Notes under the pieces: generated by a model | The model's database searches: none | Told to the model about the DNA's origin: nothing | What the model saw: only the letters and a program-made list of their open reading frames with translations | Part shown: positions 22,935-61,460 of the stretch, piece by piece | Position numbering within the stretch: the first letter of the stretch is position 1 | Layout: each line of letters starts with the position of its first letter | DNA from: Clostridium sp. KNHs205 | Lineage (GTDB): Bacteria > Bacillota > Clostridia > Lachnospirales > Lachnospiraceae | Direction: 5' to 3' | Length of the DNA: 64,000 bases | NCBI RefSeq assembly: GCF_000702945.1 | Contig: NZ_JNLE01000003.1 | Span: 1,783,501 to 1,847,500, forward strand | Made by a program: the position numbers and the translations under genes

Positions 22935-23013
22935 GTGGACTTGTCACCCATAAATCGGGTTTAAATGATTCCATCTATAAAAATTCCCTCTATAGAACTT
23001 AACTTCAATATAT

Positions 23014-23209
23014 GCAAAAAACAGAAGAACGAATGCGCCTATGGAAAGGTATTAGAAGTCCTTTTTTCTGAATATTTTATGCTATCTTATCAAACAGATT
23101 GTTTGAGTGAAGCGAGTTATCTGTTTGATAAGATGTCCAGCATAAAATATTCAGAAAATTAGGAATTCTTATACCTTGGAATGAAGCATGAGTGCTTCTG
23201 TTTTTTTGC
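23014..23209 (+). repeat. 196-bp near-palindromic element, copy A
   Basis: Ends are GCAAAAAACAGAAG and CTTCTGTTTTTTTGC. The core is two stacked perfect 16-bp stems: CTGAATATTTTATGCT (23068-23083) with 23139-23154, and ATCTTATCAAACAGAT (23084-23099) with 23119-23134, around the loop TGTTTGAGTGAAGCGAGTT. Outer arms around GAAGTCCT/AGGAATTC pair imperfectly. A related element lies at 34344-34553. No ORF lies in the element; the gap 22935-23503 holds this element, a promoter and a leader hairpin. Confidence 0.85.
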
Positions 23210-23360
23210 AATTTTCCGTCCGTATGATGAGAAAAGAGAACTTTTGACTCTCCAGTATAATACTAAAAGGATCTGTGGGACTAAGTGCCTATGTATTTTT
23301 TTTATAAACTTTTTTGCGGGAAAAGAGAAAATTAATTTCAGCAAATAACCTTGAAAGTGT

Positions 23361-23391
23361 TTGACATAATCCTGTCCAACCTGTATATAAT
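23361..23391 (+). promoter_or_regulatory. Promoter of the SpoIID-domain gene
   Basis: TTGACA at 23361-23366 with TATATA at 23384 (17-bp spacer) overlapping TATAAT at 23386-23391. It is 110 bp upstream of the ATG at 23504. Confidence 0.75.
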
Positions 23392-23408
23392 GTAATACAA
23401 GCTTGTTA

Positions 23409-23462
23409 GGGTGTGTCGGAAGTTCTTGCACCGTTCCGAACGCTTTCGTAAGCGGCATATCC
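23409..23462 (+). promoter_or_regulatory. 5' leader hairpin of the SpoIID-domain gene
   Basis: GGGTGTGTC (23409-23417) pairs with GGCATATCC (23454-23462) if three G-U pairs are allowed. Inside are TCGGAA/TTCCGA and CGCTT/AAGCG hairpins. The outer stem resembles the leader hairpin before GH3 at 16445. Confidence 0.45.
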
Positions 23463-23503
23463 GCGCCAAATCCAAGACAAGCAGGACAGGAAAAGGGGCA
23501 AAC

Positions 23504-25930
23504 ATGAAAAAGAAACTGTGGCTGTTGGGCATCTGTATAGCTGCCATATTAATTATATTTGTAGGAAATGTTATCAGACAGTTAAAGGAAAGCAATGACA
23601 CAGAGAAAGTTAATACACCTGCAAGAGCCGGAGAAATTATAAAAACAGCAGAAGCTCAAAGACTGCTGGCTTCTCTGGGCGTAAAGACAGAAGAGGCTGA
23701 TACAGACCAGGAGAATGAGCTGACCTTCAAAGAAGCACGCAGTTACCTGGCACTGATTACGGAAACCCTTAACCTTACCGAAAAGGACATAACGGATAAA
23801 TTAACTTACTCCCTCTCAGACCTTCAGGATGGGAAAAAGATGAGAGTTTCGGAATTCCTTGGTTTCTATCAGGCAGTACTGGATAGTATAGAAGCAGAGG
23901 AGCTTCCGGTAACAGAAAAAGAAGTATACATATTAGGCAGCAGGGAAGAAAATGATTCGGAAGTTATTATTACTGACGCAGGAGAATTTAATCTAAAAAA
24001 TGCAGTTAGCTATGAAGAATATTATAAAGCCGGTAAATTAACAGACGTTGAGGATACTATAACCGGGGGCAGTGAAGGGGAAACCGGACATAAGCTGCCG
24101 GCAACAAAAACGGTAAGAGCTTCAGACTATACGGATATGGCAGTAACTGTACTTATTAAGGGAAAGGATATTATCTATATTAAAGAAACTTCTGATAAAG
24201 AATGGGTTCTCTCCAATCTCTGGATCATAAGCGGTAAAGACAATAAAATAAGTACCTATGTAAACGGCTTTACGAAAGATTTTCTGACAGAATATCCGCT
24301 ATCGGAGGAAATCGAAAACACGATCAGTAATGTTACCGTAAAAAATAAAAAGATTATCAGAATAACCATGAAACCTGATACCATCAAAGGAAAAGTGCTT
24401 TCTGCGGGTAAAAACAGCATTGAGATCCAGGGATATGGCAAAGTTCCTTTAGAAGATGGCTATAAGATATATAAAATCTATGGAGATCTATCCATGGAGG
24501 TTACAAACAGTATTCTGGTGGGATACAGCACCACAGATTTTGTTGTGGCGGATGGAAAAATAGCAGCAGCCCTCATTACAGAACCAATCAGGGCTGAAAA
24601 TATACGTGTTCTTATTAAGACGGATAATTTTAACGGTATATTCCATGACCAGGTGGTGCTTACAGCCAACAAAGATTTCACCGTAACGGCGGGCAAGACA
24701 GTAAAGAAACACAAAGCAGGGGATAAAGTAACTATTAAGACTACAAATAAACTTTTTAACGAAGGCAGGCTGCTCATAGAGACCCAGGGAGAAAACGGAA
24801 AGATAACTATCCTTTCTGTAAACAGATCCGGTGGGAATCCCAAATACAGAGGGAATATTGAGGTGGCAAAAGAAACGGACGGACTAACCATTGTAAATGA
24901 ACTATCCATGGAAGAGTACCTTTATGCTGTAATACCCAGTGAAATGCCTACTTCCTACAATATGGAGGCACTAAAGGCTCAGGCAGTCTGTGCCAGAAGT
25001 TATGCCTATAATCAGCTGATGGCAGGGGCTTTAAGTGAATACGGGGCCCAGGTGGATGACAGTGTCAGCTATCAGGTATACAATAACCTTCCGGAAAATG
25101 AACAGTCCATTCTGGCAGTGAAGGATACCTACGGTAAGGTTATAAAATATGATGCTAAAGTAATAGATGCTTATTATTTCTCTACCTCCTGGGGACATAC
25201 AGCTTCGTTAAAGGAAGTATGGGGCAGTGATGTAGCGGCACCTTATTTAACAGGAAAAGCCCAGGCAGTTTATGACCTGGTAGATCAAAAGACGGTATAT
25301 GCAGCTTCATTCCATCCGGAGGATATTGACTACTCGGATGAAACTGCATTTCGAAGCTTCCTGGAAAAGCCTGAATATGATACCTATGACAGTGAATTTC
25401 CCTGGTATCGCTGGAAGGTAACCATGACCAAAGACGAACTGACAAAGACCATTAATCAGAGCCTTAGCAGCCGTTACAAAGCTAATCCCGGATATATTCT
25501 GACTCTGACCGGAGGTACCCTGTCAGGGAATCCGATTTTTGAAAGCAGGGATATCAGCACCATCGGGGAGCTTACAGATATAAAAATAGCCGCCAGAGAA
25601 ACCAGCGGCGTAGTATCAAAAATATACCTGGTAGGAACCAAAGCAACGGTTTCCGTTCAGAGCGAATATAATATAAGAAGCCTTTTATCGCCTATCACCT
25701 CTAAGATAATCAGGGCAGACGATAGTTCTGTCAGCGCCTTGAAGCTGCTGCCCAGTGCCTATATCTGCTTTAACAAAGGAGAGGATAAGATCACCATAAA
25801 AGGCGGTGGTTACGGACATGGAGTAGGAATGAGTCAGAATGGTGCGAAGGCAATGGCCGATTCCGGCAAGACCTTTGACCTTATTCTAAAGCACTTTTAT
25901 ACCGGTACAGAGATTGGATTTATTTATTGA
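23504..25930 (+). CDS. Membrane-anchored SpoIID/LytB-domain protein
   Basis: This 808-residue protein has one N-terminal transmembrane segment (about residues 5-25) and a long extracytoplasmic region. The C-terminal about 340 residues are a SpoIID domain: VIPSEMP with the expected catalytic Glu at E480, then LKAQAVCARSYA, YFSTSWGHTASLKEVW and the final GGGYGHGVGMSQNGA. SpoIID in Bacillus is a lytic transglycosylase acting on denuded glycan during engulfment; longer relatives also act in vegetative wall turnover. The middle region (about 150-470) is beta-rich and not recognised. ATG 23504 fits a GGGG-containing ribosome site and the start of the membrane segment; the frame is open upstream to 23411 but that part is arginine-rich leader sequence. 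The stop abuts the convergent brkB-like gene. Confidence 0.87.
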   Translation: MKKKLWLLGICIAAILIIFVGNVIRQLKESNDTEKVNTPARAGEIIKTAEAQRLLASLGVKTEEADTDQENELTFKEARSYLALITETLNLTEKDITDKLTYSLSDLQDGKKMRVSEFLGFYQAVLDSIEAEELPVTEKEVYILGSREENDSEVIITDAGEFNLKNAVSYEEYYKAGKLTDVEDTITGGSEGETGHKLPATKTVRASDYTDMAVTVLIKGKDIIYIKETSDKEWVLSNLWIISGKDNKISTYVNGFTKDFLTEYPLSEEIENTISNVTVKNKKIIRITMKPDTIKGKVLSAGKNSIEIQGYGKVPLEDGYKIYKIYGDLSMEVTNSILVGYSTTDFVVADGKIAAALITEPIRAENIRVLIKTDNFNGIFHDQVVLTANKDFTVTAGKTVKKHKAGDKVTIKTTNKLFNEGRLLIETQGENGKITILSVNRSGGNPKYRGNIEVAKETDGLTIVNELSMEEYLYAVIPSEMPTSYNMEALKAQAVCARSYAYNQLMAGALSEYGAQVDDSVSYQVYNNLPENEQSILAVKDTYGKVIKYDAKVIDAYYFSTSWGHTASLKEVWGSDVAAPYLTGKAQAVYDLVDQKTVYAASFHPEDIDYSDETAFRSFLEKPEYDTYDSEFPWYRWKVTMTKDELTKTINQSLSSRYKANPGYILTLTGGTLSGNPIFESRDISTIGELTDIKIAARETSGVVSKIYLVGTKATVSVQSEYNIRSLLSPITSKIIRADDSSVSALKLLPSAYICFNKGEDKITIKGGGYGHGVGMSQNGAKAMADSGKTFDLILKHFYTGTEIGFIY

Positions 25931-26890
25931 TTATTTGCTTGGAATCCCATCATTGCTGTCCTCTTCTTCCTCTCCCTGTTCCTGGATATAAAGCTTATCA
26001 ATGGCTTTCCTGTCCTTTGCTTTTAAGGTTTTCCTGTGCTTAAAGAGGTATTTCATATAAAATACCAGGTCACCGGAGGACAGTACCACATTGATCTCGC
26101 CGCCGATAAAGAGGATATGCATGATGAAATAGAACCATAGCATAAACAGCACGATAGCAGTAAGGCTACCGTAGGTACGGGAATAGTTACTCATGTTATC
26201 GATATAATAGGAATACAGGTAAGAAAAGCCCATCCAGCCGGCAGCGGCGATAAGTGCTCCTGGAAATTCACGGTATAATTTGGTAGTCCGGTTGGGTATG
26301 GCTATATAGACCATGAGAAAGAAACAGGTAAGAATAAGCAGGCCTGCAATGGTACGGATGCTTATAATAACCAGCGCTAAATGGGTGAGCACAGGTATTT
26401 TTTGTATAATCCAGTCATAAAGCTGATTACCGAATACCAAAATAAAAATAGTAACAATTAAAATTATCGTAAAAACCAGAGTATAGAAGGCAGATATAAG
26501 CCGCAGTTTAAAATTATTGCGGCTTTCTCTTATTCCATAAACTGCGTTCAGACCTTTCACAATACCAAGAATTCCTCTGGAAGCAGCCCAGAGAGCAGAA
26601 ATAGCGGCCGTAACGGAAATTAATGTACCGGAATCATTGTGGTAGATTTCTTTTATAACGCCGATAACCATTTCGTCTATACTGTCAGGAAAGAACTGAT
26701 CAATTACTGTAAGAAGTACCTTCTGGTCAATGGACAGATATTGAATCAAAGTCAGAAACAGCATAAAAAAAGGGAAAAAAGAGATAATTACAAAAAAAGC
26801 TGCCTGAGCAGAGAAAGCTGCAATGTTATCTTCTTTCACTTTACGCCCGAAAGCACGTATTATTTTATATATGGATATCAGTATATTCAT
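25931..26890 (-). CDS. YihY/BrkB-family membrane protein
   Basis: This 319-residue inner membrane protein has about six hydrophobic helices and the family pattern: an N-terminal AAFSAQAAFFVIISFFPF segment, central ALWAASRGILGIVKGLNAVYG, and late SRTYGSLTAIVLFMLWFYF followed by LFIGGEIN. The function of the family is not settled; early naming as a ribonuclease is not supported. The charged C-terminal tail ends in EEEEDSNDG. The ATG at 26890 is preferred because GAGGT lies 5 bases upstream; the frame is open to 26959. The gene converges with the SpoIID gene with no bases between the stop codons. Confidence 0.88.
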   Translation of the reverse strand: MNILISIYKIIRAFGRKVKEDNIAAFSAQAAFFVIISFFPFFMLFLTLIQYLSIDQKVLLTVIDQFFPDSIDEMVIGVIKEIYHNDSGTLISVTAAISALWAASRGILGIVKGLNAVYGIRESRNNFKLRLISAFYTLVFTIILIVTIFILVFGNQLYDWIIQKIPVLTHLALVIISIRTIAGLLILTCFFLMVYIAIPNRTTKLYREFPGALIAAAGWMGFSYLYSYYIDNMSNYSRTYGSLTAIVLFMLWFYFIMHILFIGGEINVVLSSGDLVFYMKYLFKHRKTLKAKDRKAIDKLYIQEQGEEEEDSNDGIPSK

Positions 26891-27191
26891 CAGTGACCTC
26901 ATTTCAAACACTGTAAAGAAAGTGTTGTATGTACATTTTATTATATGCCTATTCATCACAATTTATATTTGAATCAGATGGATTTCTAATAATTGCATTG
27001 CGTGACATAAAAATGCAAGCATTTCTTATCAGTGAAAGACAAATTATGAACAAGCCTGCAGCAGCCTGGGTTGACGGGCTGCTGTTAATATAGATGTATA
27101 TTATAACATGACAAGTACAGGATGAAAAGCCAGAGAATGGAAGTTTTATCATAGACGGATTATTTTATGAAAATTACGTATATGAATTTTA

Positions 27192-27920
27192 TTAATTATC
27201 AATACCTACTTTATTATAAGCTACAATGAAAACTACACTTGTAACGACAATCCAGATAAAAATCGTTACAAAGGGCAGAATTTCCTGAGAGGAGAGACTC
27301 AATCCGTAAAAAATCTTATTAAAGATAAGTGTCATATTGTAATTGGGTGTAAATACAGCGATTTTTCTGATATTTTCATTAAAGTCGGCCATCATTGGTA
27401 TAAGGAGCAGTATTAACATAATCGGCATGCCGATAACGCTGGTAGACATTTGATTTTTTGAAAACATACCGATTAAGGCACCTATTATAATCATACTGAT
27501 GATAACTAAAGTAGAGATTAGCAGAAACCAGGCTAAATACTTGACTTCCATACCGGAAATAAAAAATATGATAATGTTAGTAATTGTAGACAATATCAGA
27601 GTCAGGACAACTTTTCCAAAGAGGAACTCAAGAGCGGATACGCCTGAGAGTAATAAAGTTCTTAAGGTGTTCTTCTCTTTCTCTTCTGCAATCAGCATGG
27701 CGATCGTAAAACTGGAGCACATAATCAGGTTCATATTCAGGCAGAGCAGCATAACCATGAGTTTTGGCATACCATTCACATGGTCACTGCCATAGATGTA
27801 AGAATAGATAATACTGAACAAAATAGGCAGCATACACATTAACAGTACGTTTGTATTCTTTGTAAAGCTCTTAAATTCCTTTTTGGTTAGAGCCTTTATT
27901 CTTCTTAATGATAGTGTCAT
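27192..27920 (-). CDS. ABC-2 type permease of LytTR-linked ABC system
   Basis: This 242-residue membrane protein has about six helices in the ABC-2/CcmB-like arrangement, with an EEKEKNTLRTLLLSGVSALEFL loop after the second helix, typical of the NatB/YhfP-like export permeases. It overlaps the preceding ATPase gene by one base (TAATG), so translational coupling is expected. Together with the ATPase and the LytTR-ABC regulator it forms a three-gene minus-strand operon. The substrate is unknown; lantibiotic immunity, sodium export or peptide export are all seen among relatives. Confidence 0.85.
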   Translation of the reverse strand: MTLSLRRIKALTKKEFKSFTKNTNVLLMCMLPILFSIIYSYIYGSDHVNGMPKLMVMLLCLNMNLIMCSSFTIAMLIAEEKEKNTLRTLLLSGVSALEFLFGKVVLTLILSTITNIIIFFISGMEVKYLAWFLLISTLVIISMIIIGALIGMFSKNQMSTSVIGMPIMLILLLIPMMADFNENIRKIAVFTPNYNMTLIFNKIFYGLSLSSQEILPFVTIFIWIVVTSVVFIVAYNKVGIDN

Positions 27921-28765
27921 TATAATTCCCTCCCTGTGAGCATAAGAAATATTTGTTCTAAAGCAGGTTCTGTTGAATGGATGGAAACCAGTTTGTTATC
28001 ATTCATCCATTCCATGATTTTCCTGCCTGTATCCGGTGTGTTCTTAAGAAGGAGTTTTTCAGAGCTTCCTTTTAAGATTACCTTAATTTCATCTGTTATA
28101 TATTTAAGTTTCAACTCGGAAGGATTTCCAAGTTCAACGATTTCGCCATTGTTTAAGAAGGCAACTCTGTCGCACAGTTTATCAGCCTCTTCCATATTAT
28201 GAGTGGTTAGGAAGATTGTAGTTCCTTCTTTGTTTAATAGTCTTAAGAGTTTATGAATTTCAAGTGCAGTTCCAGGGTCCAGAGCCGATGTAGGTTCATC
28301 CAGGAAGAGGAGCTTTGGTTTATGGATAACGGAACGAGCCAGCATTAATCTCTGCTTCATACCTTTTGAGAGTTTTCTGGCTTCTAATTTACTGCTTTCA
28401 GCGAGGCCAACCTTTTCAAGTATTTCATCAATATTCTTTTCGGGTATTCCATAGATATCCGTATAGAGTGCCAGATTATCCCATACGGTTAATCTTTCAT
28501 ATATCCCGCTGTTATCACTTAGGACACCGGTTTTATCAAAGATATGCTGTTTATTTGCATAAACCTCTTTTCCGAATACTTTAACACTTCCTGCGGAAGG
28601 AATGAGCTGAGAGGTAAGTAACTTTATAGTAGTAGTTTTTCCGGAACCGCTTGGTCCTAAGAAACCGAATATCTCTCCTTCCTTAACTTTAACATTTAAT
28701 CCTGCTAAAGCTGTTTTCTCTTTAAAGTTTTTTCTGACATTTTCCATGTCGATGATGTAGTTCAT
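27920..28765 (-). CDS. ABC transporter ATP-binding protein
   Basis: This 281-residue ATPase carries Walker A GPSGSGKTT, signature LSKGMKQRL, Walker B LLFLDEPTSALDP and the switch His in TTHNMEE, followed by a C-terminal domain of about 60 residues seen in NatA/CcmA-type exporters. The ATG at 28765 has AAGGAG 9 bases upstream; the frame extends to 28828 but runs back into the putative operator region. It lies between the LytTR-ABC regulator gene and the permease gene. A 12-bp direct repeat with 21-bp spacing lies about 70-100 bp upstream of the start, where an activator could bind. Confidence 0.92.
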   Translation of the reverse strand: MNYIIDMENVRKNFKEKTALAGLNVKVKEGEIFGFLGPSGSGKTTTIKLLTSQLIPSAGSVKVFGKEVYANKQHIFDKTGVLSDNSGIYERLTVWDNLALYTDIYGIPEKNIDEILEKVGLAESSKLEARKLSKGMKQRLMLARSVIHKPKLLFLDEPTSALDPGTALEIHKLLRLLNKEGTTIFLTTHNMEEADKLCDRVAFLNNGEIVELGNPSELKLKYITDEIKVILKGSSEKLLLKNTPDTGRKIMEWMNDNKLVSIHSTEPALEQIFLMLTGREL

Positions 28766-28836
28766 ACGTTTGTTGCTCCTTTCGTTGATCATGGCTGTAT
28801 TATGCGGCAGATTTAAGGTTACTGCCACATATTTGG

Positions 28837-28869
28837 CCTGAAAGGAGCTGAAAAATCCCTGAAAGGAGC
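28837..28869. promoter_or_regulatory. Direct repeat with 21-bp period, candidate LytTR operator
   Basis: CCTGAAAGGAGC occurs at 28837-28848 and again at 28858-28869, exactly two helical turns apart. It lies between the LytTR-ABC regulator gene and the ABC ATPase gene. LytTR proteins such as AgrA bind paired direct repeats with this spacing, which is the basis of the call. Confidence 0.55.
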
Positions 28870-28915
28870 ATATTTTAGAATGAAACCTGCATATTTTTCT
28901 CCCAGTGGAGCAGAT

Positions 28916-29929
28916 TTAGAGCTTTAAAATACTCTTTAATTCCTCCAGCCTTCCTTTGGAGAGGGGGATGGAGCTCTTAAGTTTATCGTCCAGATTCAAG
29001 CTGAAGCTGTTTCTGGTCCAGGTAACCACTTCTCTGACTCTTTGGAGATTGACAAGATAGGAGCGGTGACTTCGAAAGAAACCGAAATATTTGAGTCTCT
29101 CTTCCAGCTCAGTTAAGGATAGGCCGCAGGGAAATTTTTCACCTCGTATATACAGGTAGCAGGAACCCTCTCCGCTTTCAACATAATCAATTTCCATTGG
29201 ATCAAAGAGAAGAATCTTATCTTCGATTTTAGCTGGAATTTTTTCGATGGTATATGTATTTTTAACATCTTCTTGAATGATTTTGCTTTGAACGGAAACT
29301 TCATTGTTGTTAATTTCAGTACAGCCTTCCTCCTCAAGACGGTAGGCTTTATCCCCTACAAGTATAGCATCTTTTAAATGTACGGAAGTCAGAAGAAGGG
29401 CAGTATTATTGTCACAAAGTTTTCGGATATTTTCAATTATCAGACTGGCACCCTCATTATCCAGATTTAATATTGGTTCCTGAATGAGGAGAAGGGCAGG
29501 TTTTTTCAGCATTTCTCTTGCAAGGCTGACTCTTCTCTTTTGAGAATAGCTTAATTTCTTAATAACTTCTTTGCCGATATCTAGAATCGCCAGTTTTAAC
29601 ATAACAGCTTTATAATCTCCATTGTTTCTGTAAACTTCTGTGAAGAATTTCAGGTAACTTTCGATGGTCATCCCCTCATACAAAGCATCTTCTTTTAATA
29701 TGACACCAACAGAGTTGGGATTCTTACGTATATAGTCCTGATAAGGCATATCCCCCAGTAAAATTTCACCTCTGGAGGGAAGTTCTTTGCCTAAGATCAA
29801 CTGAAATAATAAATCACTTATTTCACTATTGCATTCCAGGCTTACGGAACTGCCAGGGTTTACTGTTATATTAAGCCCTTTGATGGATTGACTTTTATTT
29901 TCCTTATATAAATCTCTGATAAGCAGCAT
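28916..29929 (-). CDS. LytTR DNA-binding protein fused to a degenerate ABC ATPase domain
   Basis: This 337-residue protein has an ABC-ATPase-like N-terminal two thirds (about 1-215) and a C-terminal LytTR DNA-binding domain (about 240-335, with DYVESGEGSCYLYIRG and FFRSHRSYLVNL). The ATPase part keeps a recognisable signature (LSYSQKRRVSLAREML) and Walker B-like ALLLIQEP, but the Walker A loop reads ECNSEISDL without GKS/T, so ATP hydrolysis is unlikely. Such proteins occur beside ABC exporters in Firmicutes and probably regulate them by contacting the genuine subunits. The ATG at 29929 follows AAGGA by 8 bases. A TATAAT box about 50 bp upstream is the likely -10. Confidence 0.85.
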   Translation of the reverse strand: MLLIRDLYKENKSQSIKGLNITVNPGSSVSLECNSEISDLLFQLILGKELPSRGEILLGDMPYQDYIRKNPNSVGVILKEDALYEGMTIESYLKFFTEVYRNNGDYKAVMLKLAILDIGKEVIKKLSYSQKRRVSLAREMLKKPALLLIQEPILNLDNEGASLIIENIRKLCDNNTALLLTSVHLKDAILVGDKAYRLEEEGCTEINNNEVSVQSKIIQEDVKNTYTIEKIPAKIEDKILLFDPMEIDYVESGEGSCYLYIRGEKFPCGLSLTELEERLKYFGFFRSHRSYLVNLQRVREVVTWTRNSFSLNLDDKLKSSIPLSKGRLEELKSILKL

Positions 29930-30111
29930 ATTTAATTCCTTTCTGACTGACATATGTACTTTTTTATGTCTGGGATATTATAACATAAATCTATGGCATA
30001 AAAAAGTCTGTCGGCAGTCAAAGCTTTAGCAAACAGCAGAAAATATATACAAATAAAAAAGTTGGCTGATTTTCAGCAGAAGATTTAACCTCTTTTTCAA
30101 CGGTATCAGCC

Positions 30112-30139
30112 TTGACAAGAGAAAATATTGTGCTAAAAT
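30112..30139 (+). promoter_or_regulatory. Promoter of the pheST T-box transcript
   Basis: TTGACA at 30112-30117, 16 bp, TAAAAT at 30134-30139, giving a start just before the T-box leader. Confidence 0.75.
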
Positions 30140-30145
30140 GGTATA

Positions 30146-30469
30146 CATATGTAAAAGGCAATGAAGGTGACAGGAGTATATCTCCTTACCGGATAATTGT
30201 TTTCTGTCAGAGAGAGGAAGTCACCGGCTGAAAGCTTCCTTCAGTTCAGATAATTATTTACTTTCACACCGGAGCTGTGTCCCAGAAGCTAAGTAGGGGA
30301 TGACGTTGTAAGCACGTTACGCTTAGACTTGAGTGCCTGATGAGAGAATATAACCGTGAGTTATAATTTATCAGAAGGAATTAGGGTGGTACCGCGGAAT
30401 GGTTCCAGTTTTAAGAAATGTCTTAGAATGTTGATACAGCTCCGTCCCTTTTGGGACGGAGCTTTTTTG
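30146..30469 (+). ncRNA. T-box riboswitch for tRNA-Phe
   Basis: The leader has the standard T-box parts. A stem I region (about 30160-30245) contains the AGAGAG bulge and a TTC specifier next to CTGAAAGC; the conserved T-box AGGGTGGTACCGCGG lies at 30383-30397; and a terminator hairpin AGCTCCGTCCC / GGGACGGAGCT with six T follows at 30438-30469. Uncharged tRNA-Phe would pair with the UGGU bulge and stabilise the antiterminator so that pheS and pheT are transcribed. The Phe assignment rests on the TTC specifier and on the downstream genes agreeing with it. The gap from 29930 to 30632 holds this leader and nothing else evident. Confidence 0.93.
30438..30469 (+). terminator. Regulated terminator of the T-box
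   Basis: An 11-bp perfect stem with a TTTT loop, followed by TTTTTT; it competes with the T-box antiterminator. Confidence 0.9.
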
Positions 30470-30632
30470 TTGCGTAAGAGTAGTAATAATCATACTGGCT
30501 CCCATTGCAGGCTGTATCTGTTACAGATGTGGCACTGCCGCAGATCATGGTGTGAATGATGCATTTTGATAATTCACATAAACACCATGCATACCGCAGC
30601 TTAATAAGCTTTATTGATGGAAAGGAGAAAAA

Positions 30633-31655
30633 ATGATGCAGGAAAAATTAAAAGCAATTGTAAATGACGCCCTTGAGAAAATGAAAGCAGCAGACCAGCT
30701 TGACACTCTGAATGATATAAAAGTAGCATATCTGGGTAAAAAAGGCGAACTGACAGAAATTCTAAAATCTATGAAGGAGGTATCTCCCGAAGACAGACCC
30801 AAAGTAGGTCAGCTGGTAAATGAAGCCAGAACCGTTCTGGAGGAGAAATTAGAGGAGGCGAAAAAGGGCTTTCTTGGTAAGATAAAAGAGGAACAGATCA
30901 AGAAGGAAACCATCGACGTTACTCTTCCTGCTAAAAGACCTCATATGGGACACCGCCATCCTAACAACATAGCTTTGGAAGAAGTAGAAAGAATTTTTGT
31001 AGGTATGGGTTATGAAGTGGTGGAAGGCCCGGAAGTTGAGTATGATTACTACAACTTCGAAGCACTTAATATTCCTGCCAACCATCCTGCCAAGGATGAG
31101 CAGGATACCTTCTATGTTAACAGCAATATTCTGTTAAGAACCCAGACTTCACCGGTTCAGGTAAGGGTTATGGAAGAGGGAAAGCTCCCTATTCGTATGA
31201 TTGCACCGGGAAGAGTATTCCGTTCCGATGAAGTGGATGCCACTCATTCACCTTGCTTTAATCAGATTGAAGGACTTGTAATAGATAAGAATATCACTTT
31301 CGCAGATTTAAAGGGTACACTGGCTGAATTTGCAAAACAGCTTTTCGGTGAAGGCACAAAAGTTAAGTTCAGACCCCATCACTTTCCCTTTACTGAACCC
31401 AGTGCAGAGGTTGATGTAACCTGTTTTAAATGCGGCGGAGACGGCTGTCGTTTCTGTAAAGGCACCGGCTGGATTGAAATTCTTGGCTGTGGTATGGTTC
31501 ATCCCAACGTACTTAAGATGAGCGGTATCGATCCGGAGGAATACACTGGTTTTGCTTTCGGTGTTGGCCTTGAGCGTATTACACTTCTAAAATATGAAAT
31601 TGATGATATGAGACTCTTATACGAGAATGATATCCGATTTCTGAAGCAATTCTAG
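30633..31655 (+). CDS. pheS: Phenylalanyl-tRNA synthetase alpha subunit
   Basis: This 340-residue class II synthetase subunit charges tRNA-Phe as an alpha2-beta2 tetramer with PheT. The N-terminal coiled coil (about 1-85) is followed by the catalytic core: GHRHP, motif 2 around [30 protein letters not shown], and motif 3 in [16 protein letters not shown] zinc-like cluster [17 protein letters not shown], common in clostridial PheS, is present at about 266-282. The start has AAGGAG 6-9 bases upstream; two consecutive ATG codons (30633, 30636) could both serve. It is controlled by the T-box upstream. Confidence 0.97.
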
Positions 31656-31744
31656 ATGACTTAATATAAAGGCACTGCCAGGAAGGCAGTTGTTATAACA
31701 GGATAGAATTACTGGTAAGAGAATGGGATAGCAATTTTAACAGA

Positions 31745-31827
31745 ATTAAGTCTATAAATTTCTATCAGATAGAAAGAACCTTTACATGATAAATAAAGAC
31801 TTTATGTTTATGCAGAATAGACTTAAT
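31745..31827 (+). repeat. Inverted repeat in the pheS-pheT gap
   Basis: ATTAAGTCTA (31745-31754) and its exact complement (31818-31827) bracket 63 bases; two partly similar TCTAT-AGAAAGAA segments also occur. The 213-bp gap is long for a pheST operon. No promoter is evident, so mRNA processing or stabilisation is one possibility. Confidence 0.4.
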
Positions 31828-31868
31828 CCATTCTATATAGAAAGAAACAGATTAATAGGAGGAGACAC

Positions 31869-34307
31869 ATGAATACGCCATTGTCATGGATTAAAGCATA
31901 TGTGCCGGGGCTTAACGTTACCCCTCAGGAATATACCGATAAAATGACCTTAAGCGGTAGTAAGGTTGAAGGATTTGAAGCCCTTGACAGGGATCTTGAG
32001 AAAATAGTAGTAGGTAAGATATTAAAGATAGAAAGACATCCGGATGCAGATAAACTGATTATCTGCCAGGTTCAGATTACAGAGGAAGGAGAAACTGTAC
32101 AGATTGTAACAGGTGCTCCCAATGTATCCGAAGGAGATGTTATTCCGGTTGTATTAGAAGGCGGAAGAGTTGCCGGAGGACACGACGGAAATAAAACAGC
32201 AGGTGGAATCAAGATTAAGAAGGGTAAGCTTCGGGGAGTGGAATCCTTTGGTATGATGTGTTCCATTGAAGAACTGGGTTCCAGTAAAGAAATGTATCCC
32301 GATGCTCCCGATAACGGAATTTATATCTTCAGCCATAACGAAGCCTACAAGGACTTAAAAATCGGCTCCAGTGCAGTAGAAGCTCTGGGACTTAACGATG
32401 TAGTATTCGAGTATGAGATTACCTCAAACCGCGTGGATTGTTTTGGCGTAATCGGTCTTGCCAGAGAAGCGGCAGCAACCTTTCAGCAGGAATTTGTACC
32501 GCCTGTTGTAAAAGAAACCGGAAACAGTGAAAAGGCTTCAGATTATATCAAGGTTTCCATTGAAGACAGTGATCTTTGCTCCAGATATGTAGCAAGAGTA
32601 GTTAAGAACATAAAGATAGCACCTTCACCTCAATGGATGCAGAGAAGACTTGCAGCTTGCGGTATCAGACCTATTAATAATATTGTAGATATCACGAATT
32701 ATGTAATGGAAGAATATGCCCAGCCTATGCATGCCTATGACCTTGACCTGATAGCAGGCAAAGAGATCATTGTACGCAGAGGAAAAGACGGAGAAGAGTT
32801 TACTACCCTTGACGGTCAGGTAAGAAAGATTGATTCCTCCATCCTTATGATCTGTGATGGTGAAAAGCCAGTTGGTATCGCCGGAATCATGGGCGGTGAG
32901 AATTCAAAGATTACAGAGGAAGCAACAACTCTGCTCTTTGAAGCAGCTTGCTTTGACGGCACAAATATCCGTCTCTCCGGTAAGAAACTTGGACTTAGAA
33001 CCGATGCGGCAGCTAAGTTTGAAAAAGGACTGGACCCCAATACCGCACTGGAAGCAATTAACAGAGCCTGCCAGCTGATCGAAGAACTGGGAGCCGGTGA
33101 AGTTGTGGGCGGCGCAGCAGATGTATACCCTGTAATCCGTAAGAAAAAGAGAGTTCCTTTTGATCATAACAGAACCAATAAGGTACTTGGTACTGACCTT
33201 TCCAAAGAGACCATGCTTTCCTACTTTAAGAAAATCGATCTGAGTTATGATGAAGCAACCGGCGAAGTGATTGTACCAAGCTGGAGACAGGATGTTAATC
33301 TACAGGCAGATTTAGATGAAGAAGTAGCACGTTTCTTTGGTTATGACAACATACCCACTACCCTTCCTACAGGAGAAGCCACAACCGGAAGCCTTCCTTT
33401 TAAGCTTCGCATTGAAAATGTAGCAAGAAACGTAGCAGAGCAATGCGGTTTTTCAGAGGCAATGAGCTACTCCTTTGAGAGTCCCAAGGTATTTGACAGA
33501 CTGCTTCTTCCGGCAGAGGATAAGAAACGCCAGGCAGTTGTTATTTCAAACCCTCTTGGTGAAGATTATAGTATCATGAGAACTCTTCCTCTTAATGGAA
33601 TGTTCCTGTCATTGTCCACTAATTATAACCGCAGAAACAAGAATGTACGCCTTTATGAATTATGTAATACCTATCAGCCGAAAGCGCTTCCTCTGACAGA
33701 GCTTCCCGAGGAAAGAGTGCAGTTAGTACTCGCTTTCTACGGTGACGGAGATTTCTTTGAACTAAAGGGTGTACTGGAAGAGATTCTTATGAAAGTAGGC
33801 TTAAAGGACAGAGTAAGCTATGAACCCGGAACCTTAAAACCTTATCTCCATCCGGGAAGACAGGCTGAAATGACATATGACGGCACAATTATCGGTTATT
33901 TGGGAGAAATCCATCCTGATGTACTGGAGGGCTATGACATCGGAGACAAGGCTTATGTCGGAGTACTGGATATGCCTGAAATCGTAGCAAGAGCTTCCTT
34001 TGATATAAAATATCAGGGAATAGCAAAATATCCTGCAGTTACCAGAGATTTAAGCATGCTGGTTAAGAAGGAGATAACAGCCGGCCAGGTTGAGGAAGTT
34101 ATTCGTAAGAGCTCCGGCAGCATACTTGAGAACTGTGAACTCTTTGATATCTATGAGGGAACACAGATTAAGCCAGGATTTAAATCCATGGCATATTCCC
34201 TTTCTTTCCGTGCAAAGGACAGAACTTTGGAGGAGAAGGATATTACAGAGGTTATGAACAGAATCCTCAAGAATCTTGGTAATATGGGAATTGAATTAAG
34301 ACAATAG
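31869..34307 (+). CDS. pheT: Phenylalanyl-tRNA synthetase beta subunit
   Basis: This 812-residue subunit has the full bacterial domain order: an OB-fold tRNA-binding domain (about 40-150, with ERHPDADKLIICQV), B3/B4 editing domain (about 210-390, containing ENSKITEEATTLLFEAACFD), B5 (about 405-475), the catalytic-like core (about 480-690, with EDYSIMRTLPLNGM) and the C-terminal FDX-ACB anticodon-binding domain (about 720-810). It forms the tetramer with PheS and hydrolyses mischarged Tyr-tRNA. The start follows AGGAGGAGA by a few bases. A small GGGG/CCCC hairpin 5 bp after the stop and then the palindromic element at 34344 end the transcript region. Confidence 0.97.
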   Translation: MNTPLSWIKAYVPGLNVTPQEYTDKMTLSGSKVEGFEALDRDLEKIVVGKILKIERHPDADKLIICQVQITEEGETVQIVTGAPNVSEGDVIPVVLEGGRVAGGHDGNKTAGGIKIKKGKLRGVESFGMMCSIEELGSSKEMYPDAPDNGIYIFSHNEAYKDLKIGSSAVEALGLNDVVFEYEITSNRVDCFGVIGLAREAAATFQQEFVPPVVKETGNSEKASDYIKVSIEDSDLCSRYVARVVKNIKIAPSPQWMQRRLAACGIRPINNIVDITNYVMEEYAQPMHAYDLDLIAGKEIIVRRGKDGEEFTTLDGQVRKIDSSILMICDGEKPVGIAGIMGGENSKITEEATTLLFEAACFDGTNIRLSGKKLGLRTDAAAKFEKGLDPNTALEAINRACQLIEELGAGEVVGGAADVYPVIRKKKRVPFDHNRTNKVLGTDLSKETMLSYFKKIDLSYDEATGEVIVPSWRQDVNLQADLDEEVARFFGYDNIPTTLPTGEATTGSLPFKLRIENVARNVAEQCGFSEAMSYSFESPKVFDRLLLPAEDKKRQAVVISNPLGEDYSIMRTLPLNGMFLSLSTNYNRRNKNVRLYELCNTYQPKALPLTELPEERVQLVLAFYGDGDFFELKGVLEEILMKVGLKDRVSYEPGTLKPYLHPGRQAEMTYDGTIIGYLGEIHPDVLEGYDIGDKAYVGVLDMPEIVARASFDIKYQGIAKYPAVTRDLSMLVKKEITAGQVEEVIRKSSGSILENCELFDIYEGTQIKPGFKSMAYSLSFRAKDRTLEEKDITEVMNRILKNLGNMGIELRQ

Positions 34308-34343
34308 CAACAAACCGGGGAAACCCCGTTTCATATGTATACA

Positions 34344-34553
34344 GGAAATTTGCGCAAAACAGAAAGAAGAATGCGCTGTGAAAATATATTGGAAGTCCTT
34401 TTCTTTTTAGATTTTGTGCTATATCCTTAAAGGGATTGTATAAGTGAAGTTAAGTTTCTCTTTGAGGATCTGTCAGGCACAAAATCTTTGAGAATCAGGA
34501 CTTCTTTTACATTGTAATGAAAGCATGAAGCCTTCTGTTCTGAGCAAATTTTC
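34344..34553 (+). repeat. 210-bp near-palindromic element, copy B
   Basis: Ends GGAAATTTGCGCAAAACAG and the matching CTGTTCTGAGCAAATTTTC pair with few mismatches. Inner stems are GAAGTCCT/AGGACTTC, AGATTTTGTGC/GCACAAAATCT and ATCCTTAAAGGGA with TCTCTTTGAGGAT, closing a loop that shares AGTGAAG with copy A at 23014. Stem sequences differ from copy A while pairing is kept. It starts 37 bp after pheT and ends 55 bp before the next promoter; the gap 34308-34676 holds no gene. Confidence 0.85.
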
Positions 34554-34607
34554 ATCTCATTGATAAAAACCGGCGTTTGACGTCCGTGACACTTTTCTGA
34601 CAAGGTT

Positions 34608-34637
34608 TTGACAAATTAAGCCATTATGATGTACAAT
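34608..34637 (+). promoter_or_regulatory. Promoter of the Ig-like surface protein gene
   Basis: TTGACA at 34608-34613, 18 bp, TACAAT at 34632-34637, 40 bp before the ATG at 34677. Confidence 0.7.
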
Positions 34638-61389: not shown

Positions 61390-61460
61390 CAGGGGATGAG
61401 AGAATCGAACTCCCGCTAAAGGTTTTGGAGACCCTTGTCATACCATTTGACCAATCCCCT
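61390..61460 (-). tRNA. tRNA-Trp (CCA anticodon)
   Basis: On the minus strand the acceptor arms AGGGGAT and ATCCCCT pair perfectly. A D arm GGTCAAATGGTATGAC, an anticodon stem AGGGT/ACCTT closing the 7-base loop CTCCAAA (anticodon CCA) and a T arm GGGAG-TTCGATT-CTCTC are all present. Discriminator G; the CCA end is not encoded. It is a single-copy-type gene with its own promoter and terminator. Confidence 0.96.

Follow-up and report, generated by a model that had tools for sequence, protein, structure and literature searches.

Prokaryotic miniature inverted-repeat transposable elements (MITEs) such as QMITE2 of Coxiella are short, AT-rich and intergenic and end in inverted repeats; QMITE2 is flanked by 7-9 bp direct repeats, has truncated derivatives and gives a transcript predicted to form a stable stem-loop (passages of PMC10969869). 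The Bcr1, ERIC and YPAL repeats are also intergenic, measure about 115-168 bp, occur in tens to hundreds of copies and have a predicted common fold (passages of PMC2267715), and REPINs, which go with RAYT transposases and consist of two short REP sequences, are non-autonomous mobile DNA with hairpins predicted in single-stranded DNA or mRNA (abstract of PMC3116915). GCGAAGC has been described as an extraordinarily stable DNA mini-hairpin (parts of PMC10527192). Here we analyzed two near-palindromes, A and B, in a stretch of 64,000 nucleotides (the window) from the 6.36-Mb genome of Clostridium sp. KNHs205 (G000, an Anaerocolumna-type bacterium; contig NZ_JNLE01000003.1, positions 1,783,501 to 1,847,500). 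In our assessment A and B are probably copies of a non-autonomous MITE-type transposon of about 290 bp, the body of which forms a single long hairpin; its tip is conserved and its two arms change in concert. All traits listed for QMITE2 recur in this family, which differs from QMITE2 as described in that source in that a single hairpin takes up almost all of the body, its arms covary, and the tip recurs on unrelated elements in other genera. Bcr1, ERIC and YPAL resemble it in the traits named and occur in other hosts, and the passages on them report neither a cross-genus tip nor concerted change of the arms. REPINs as described share its non-autonomous nature and predicted hairpins, whereas the present elements have a body of 290 bp, end in inverted repeats and are flanked by 8-bp duplications. 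The tip of the present elements contains GCGNAGC, in which N varies freely and A hardly at all; in the source on the mini-hairpin this is a chemistry motif, whereas here it caps a natural family of hairpins that are probably mobile.

A repeat family with transposon-like ends

A 31-letter pattern, searched with up to three mismatches in 15 genomes of the genus, matched 80 times in G000, 71 times in G012, 61 times in G014, three times in G010 and once in G004, and it had no match in the other ten; the reversed pattern gave no match at all. The G000 copies were equally divided between the two orientations (40 and 40), and seven of 79 overlapped an open reading frame (ORF) of at least 90 amino acids. 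A longer query also detected degraded traces of the family in G009. When a 251-base copy was compared with 397 genomes of the Lachnospiraceae, with two candidates scored per genome, matches were obtained in six genomes, namely G000, G009 and four of other genera. An earlier sequence-only reading of the window had made its proposals depend on further copies in the genome, and these are numerous. A literature search on such repeats in Lachnospiraceae or Anaerocolumna yielded nothing relevant among the titles listed. The family was not encountered in the sources searched; as a MITE family it is of an ordinary kind, and it is unusual in two ways, the strength and step pattern of the covariation between the arms of orthologs and the tip common to unrelated hairpins of other genera.

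Aligned flanks revealed that the full element measures about 290 bp and that its terminal inverted repeats lie beyond the 200-bp hairpin, so that the length of about 200 bp in the sequence-only reading holds for the hairpins and not for the full extent of the elements. Subfamily 1 ends in CTRGAGAGTCAAAAGTTC, and its inverted pairs span 175-305 bp; the ends of subfamily 2, which is older, are about GATTCAAGTGTCAAAAG. Target-site duplications, which the same reading had suggested looking for, were scored just outside the ends with one base of slack and one ortholog dropped. Direct repeats of 7-8 bp flanked 8 of 15 subfamily-1 sites, and repeats of at least 6 bp flanked 10; when flanks were combined in mismatched pairs, repeats of at least 6 bp occurred in 6 of 238 combinations. 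Shorter members were also found: L051 and L052 lack the apical part of the hairpin and L055 lacks nearly everything between the ends. For element A, an empty site is present in the same intergenic gap of the sister species G012 and G014. Another copy, L003, with the duplication TAAAGGAA, is absent from G014, and other sequence occupies the place in G012. Element A has three siblings that are 96-98% identical, which together with the empty sites shows that it is young. Element B is old; G000 and G014 have it, G012 has it without the left part, and G010 lacks it. Its tip has decayed, and its apical part is duplicated in G014. Copy number, inverted repeats, target duplications and empty sites thus back the MITE-like option, one of three origins that had been considered from the sequence.

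IS66 transposases are encoded in seven of ten genomes searched, and the eight loci read lack the ends of the element. The ends of an IS66 copy in G327 (GTTACTGTTCAGGGGG) resemble those of hairpins in G389 (GTAACAGTTCA) in shape only. Contig C2 of G000 (L175, 6405 bases), which carries the repeat at both ends, is self-palindromic over its whole length, with arms of 1969 nt and 741 nt that match at 100%; it is likely an assembly or library artefact rather than a plasmid. Element A had no match in plasmids or phages, the L270 and L292 hairpins had none in phages, and the L258 hairpin had none in plasmids. At one locus (L011 in G000, L032 in G014), two oppositely oriented elements lie about 1 kb apart in both species.

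Paired changes in the two arms

Covariation was analyzed in 69 copies, comprising 67 of 74 G000 references and A and B of the window. Changes on both sides occurred at 54 of 79 pairs. Paired cells amounted to 97.9%, compared to 87.2% after shuffling and 38-46% in slid structures, and 488 cells were changed on both sides versus 97 after shuffling, a value reached in none of 500 shuffles. Across several genomes, 150 of 183 matches together gave 10027 Watson-Crick, 203 G-U, 76 A-C, 159 other and 35 gapped cells. Neither a lack of covariation nor random differences in the stems, the two outcomes that the sequence-only reading had held to speak against it, was therefore seen with these shuffle and slide controls. 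Covariation beyond chance is what is expected of a structured RNA, with the caveat that copying between DNA arms yields the same signal.

To follow single steps, orthologous copies were identified by their flanks; 93 raw pairs gave 50 usable ones, 49 after removal of a duplicate, and 37 in which each copy was used once. With flanks diverged by 10.5%, the 37 independent pairs (2511 base pairs) contained 122 double changes, 102 of which led from one Watson-Crick pair to another; if the two sides changed independently, 14 double changes of any kind would be expected at a single rate, or 28 at column-specific rates. Transversion types made up 54 of the 102, a slight excess (p 0.03) over the 42% transversions in the flanks, and such changes cannot be bridged by a G-U intermediate. 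Double changes outnumbered single ones in the apical stem (34 versus 16) and in the terminal stem (49 versus 40). This excess, which is strongest near the tip and consists to one half of transversions, makes it likely that template switching from arm to arm lies behind the paired changes. The view that stem-preserving change argues for selection thus stands in part, as the pattern of double changes also fits copying of arms at the DNA level. According to the parts of PMC8794818 considered here, template switching is able to create and mend hairpins, and DNA-stable loops are proposed as promoters of the switch; such changes were described in rRNA genes, where 61% were of transition types, and that study calls its own evidence for the maintenance of short stems circumstantial.

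One-sided changes between orthologs comprised 68 G-U, 17 A-C and 49 transversion mismatches (G-U versus A-C, p 2e-8). In 146 copies, G-U exceeded A-C at 44 pairs and the reverse was true at six; A>G (110) and C>U (88) changes each added to this bias. If mending at the DNA level treats the two strands alike, as the even orientation of copies suggests, the excess of G-U points to selection on the plus strand in its folded form, whether this is RNA or one strand of the DNA. Strand-biased switching could likewise skew the pairs, as stated in one passage of PMC8794818.

These data are consistent with a mechanism in which a transposase supplied in trans would move the 290-bp element. When the element becomes single-stranded at replication, the tip GA-GCGNAGC-GA would nucleate the fold through the ultra-stable d(GCGNAGC). 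Intrastrand template switching could then carry a mutation from one arm over to the other, with the result that the stems would drift in sequence while their pairing would stay. Mismatches other than G-U would be purged by selection acting on the plus-strand fold, probably at the level of RNA in read-through transcripts.

Several observations weigh against this account. Five of the 15 tested subfamily-1 sites lack a duplication of at least 6 bp, and target duplications are degenerate in the older subfamily 2. A transposase with the same ends was not found in the inspected subset of end-repeat matches or in viral contigs, and we therefore only infer movement in trans. In the middle stem, single changes exceed double ones (78 versus 39), and the conserved internal loops were not homogenised, which indicates that template switching is not the sole force. 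The G-U bias is weak in other genera (34 G-U versus 27 A-C). Around the 79 G000 copies, the downstream gene reads toward the element in 52 cases (p 0.007, with no background rate measured), which may reflect a transcript-linked role. Conversion between copies, finally, could also shift both arms at once. The median distance to the downstream gene is about 30 bp in these 79 copies.

The strongest alternative, which we regard as a serious though less probable one, holds that the hairpin functions as a structured RNA (as 3' UTR stabiliser, as RNase III site or as ncRNA) and evolved by ordinary compensatory changes without any copying of arms. It would account for the tolerance of G-U above A-C on one strand (68:17), for the conserved internal loops and tip and for the direction of the downstream genes, and of the 154 copies in which the two strands differ in stability, 106 have the more stable fold on the plus strand. 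However, more than half of the Watson-Crick double changes are the transversions that have no wobble intermediate, double changes prevail over single ones in the apical stem, and the upstream genes have no strand preference (41 plus, 37 minus, 1 unknown). At the gathering threshold, Rfam gave only a tRNA (61390-61460) in the window and nothing in the elements, and a search of 16 related loci was negative. Below the threshold, six miRNA precursors and Phe_leader were matched; any long hairpin may yield matches resembling miRNA precursors. The structured RNA considered in the sequence-only reading receives partial support, with the strand-specific G-U bias in its favour and the lack of an Rfam match at threshold against it.

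Gene conversion among dispersed copies, which would swap both arms together and in this way give double changes, appears unlikely. With 80 copies per genome there are many donors, and apical variants do recur among copies. The 49 ortholog comparisons of the apical 8 bp gave no difference per arm in 22 cases, one in nine, two in six, three in two and other outcomes in ten, and these differences, being mostly separate pairs and not blocks, count against conversion. Nor does conversion explain how 36 different 8-mers with perfect pairing arose; 120 of 146 copies are perfectly paired. A large bidirectional terminator spread for regulatory use, the remaining option put forward from the sequence, is very improbable: long hairpins do lie near gene ends and one terminator-like site was called within the right arm of A (23183-23198), but the hairpin of B gives none and is preceded by a separate terminator-like hairpin that makes terminator duty of B unneeded, no U-run follows the consensus hairpin, and the share of convergent gaps among the element sites does not significantly exceed that in the background (30 of 78 versus 12 of 44 gaps; Fisher p 0.24).

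Covariation is accepted as the best proof of a functional RNA, and here a DNA hairpin that is probably mobile covaries very strongly across dozens of orthologs, with about half of the covarying steps beyond bridging by RNA wobble. If the two arms are indeed mended from each other in the DNA, such repeats would be miscalled as functional RNAs by covariation tests. The family is a ready test bed, as it offers dated insertions and some 80 parallel copies in each genome.

The tip motif within and beyond the genus

The tip TTGTYTGAGCGNAGCGAGTT contains the mini-hairpin GCGNAGC. Stability of such loops follows a GCGNAGC or GNA rule, with flanking sheared G-A pairs. Among 175 Anaerocolumna copies, 140 tips could be parsed, and 106 of these had GCGNAGC and 24 had GCGNNAGC. 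The motif TTGTYTGAGCGNNGCGAGTT was detected in 13 of 397 genomes of the family and in seven of 299 genomes of the phylum (G000 counted in both), and also in 55 viral stretches, compared to 9 and 0 for two control patterns; these 55 reduce to 11 distinct flanks. When at least 11 of 15 paired positions next to the tip were required, 17 distinct loci in other genera of the Lachnospiraceae included 15 at which the tip capped a stem. One of these (L239) resembles the Anaerocolumna stem and the rest look unrelated. The same test was positive at two of eight loci in other Bacillota and at three of 11 viral loci, and nine controls scored 5 to 8. At loci fetched with the pattern, its second free base was A in 99 of 100 matches, a set that includes a few Anaerocolumna copies and many near-duplicate viral entries.

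In G389, hairpins with the tip, read by eye, measure about 290 bp and have GTAACAG..CTGTTAC or a variant of it as their ends. Of four copies read, three are flanked by 8-bp duplications (TTTGCCGC, AGTCAAAA and TTTCAATA), and the fourth has a different yet paired middle stem. In the literature searched, three 15-letter variants of the tip and their complements did not occur, and the listed matches to 12-letter forms look unrelated by title. We tentatively suggest, as a possibility that we regard as rather unlikely, that the tip TTGTYTGAGCGNAGCGAGTT marks a class of hairpin elements that has gone unrecognised and extends through the Lachnospiraceae and further. In these elements the mini-hairpin would prime self-templated copying of one arm on the other, and stems could be replaced wholesale even between copies and yet stay palindromic, so that only the tip and the transposon ends would be conserved. 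If the tip is in fact common to unrelated hairpins, it would help to trace such elements as a wider class.

Several further loci are of note. L241 (G045:C45), which bears the tip, has very long arms with 183 matching positions over about 220 nt and is perhaps a young copy in another genus. The G327 copies L246, L253, L259 and L264 have similar inner hairpins and different but paired terminal stems. In G471, which belongs to another Bacillota family, the tip of L368, L371 and L372 sits on short, terminator-like hairpins with a T-run at the end, and in viral L269, L273, L279 and similar stretches it stands in a recurrent context without a hairpin. Extra or duplicated apical hairpin segments are present at the tip of L033 (G010) and L339 (G014).

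The two copies in the window

The positions and common orientation of the hairpins, their shared ends, the segment GAAGTCCT and the loop core AGTGAAG, all taken from the sequence-only reading, were verified in both. The inner stems differ yet pair as it had stated; the 16-bp inner stem of A is perfect and that of B includes G-U pairs. The distance of 35-80 bp to the preceding stop codon was likewise confirmed (about 80 bp for A, ORF end 22934; 37 bp for B, ORF end 34307). Of the promoters placed past each end, the one beyond B was found (TTGACA-18-TACAAT, 34608-34637), and the scan gave none beyond A. None of 200 shuffled sequences folded as well as A or as B, a profile built from other copies matched A and B and nothing else in the window, and neither contains an ORF of at least 100 amino acids. 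The features are listed in Table 1.

Table 1. Positions of the two hairpin elements in the window, of their parts and of an adjacent hairpin.
Feature	Coordinates	Strand	Description	Basis
Element A	23010..23255	+	hairpin-element copy; left end lost, right end intact	profile match 23010-23231, right inverted repeat, empty sites
Hairpin A	23014..23209	+	as in the sequence-only reading	fold -90.1 kcal/mol, z -12.7
Tip of hairpin A	23099..23118	+	TTGTTTGAGTGAAGCGAGTT, one change compared to TTGTYTGAGCGNAGCGAGTT	sequence reading, tip survey
Right terminal inverted repeat of A	23238..23255	-	GAACTTTTGACTCTCCAG	end-repeat match G000:C3:1806738-1806752
Element B	34329..34570	+	older, decaying copy	profile match, ortholog alignment
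Hairpin B	34344..34553	+	as in the sequence-only reading	fold -74.0 kcal/mol, z -6.2
Tip of hairpin B	34436..34455	+	TTGTATAAGTGAAGTTAAGT, degenerate	sequence reading
Short terminator-like hairpin	34316..34328		CGGGGAAACCCCG; separate, 3' of the PheT gene and upstream of hairpin B	G014 ortholog paired with changed letters

The short hairpin that follows the PheT gene also keeps its pairing across species, with CGGGG/CCCCG in the window and CAGGG/CCCTG in the G014 ortholog (L339).

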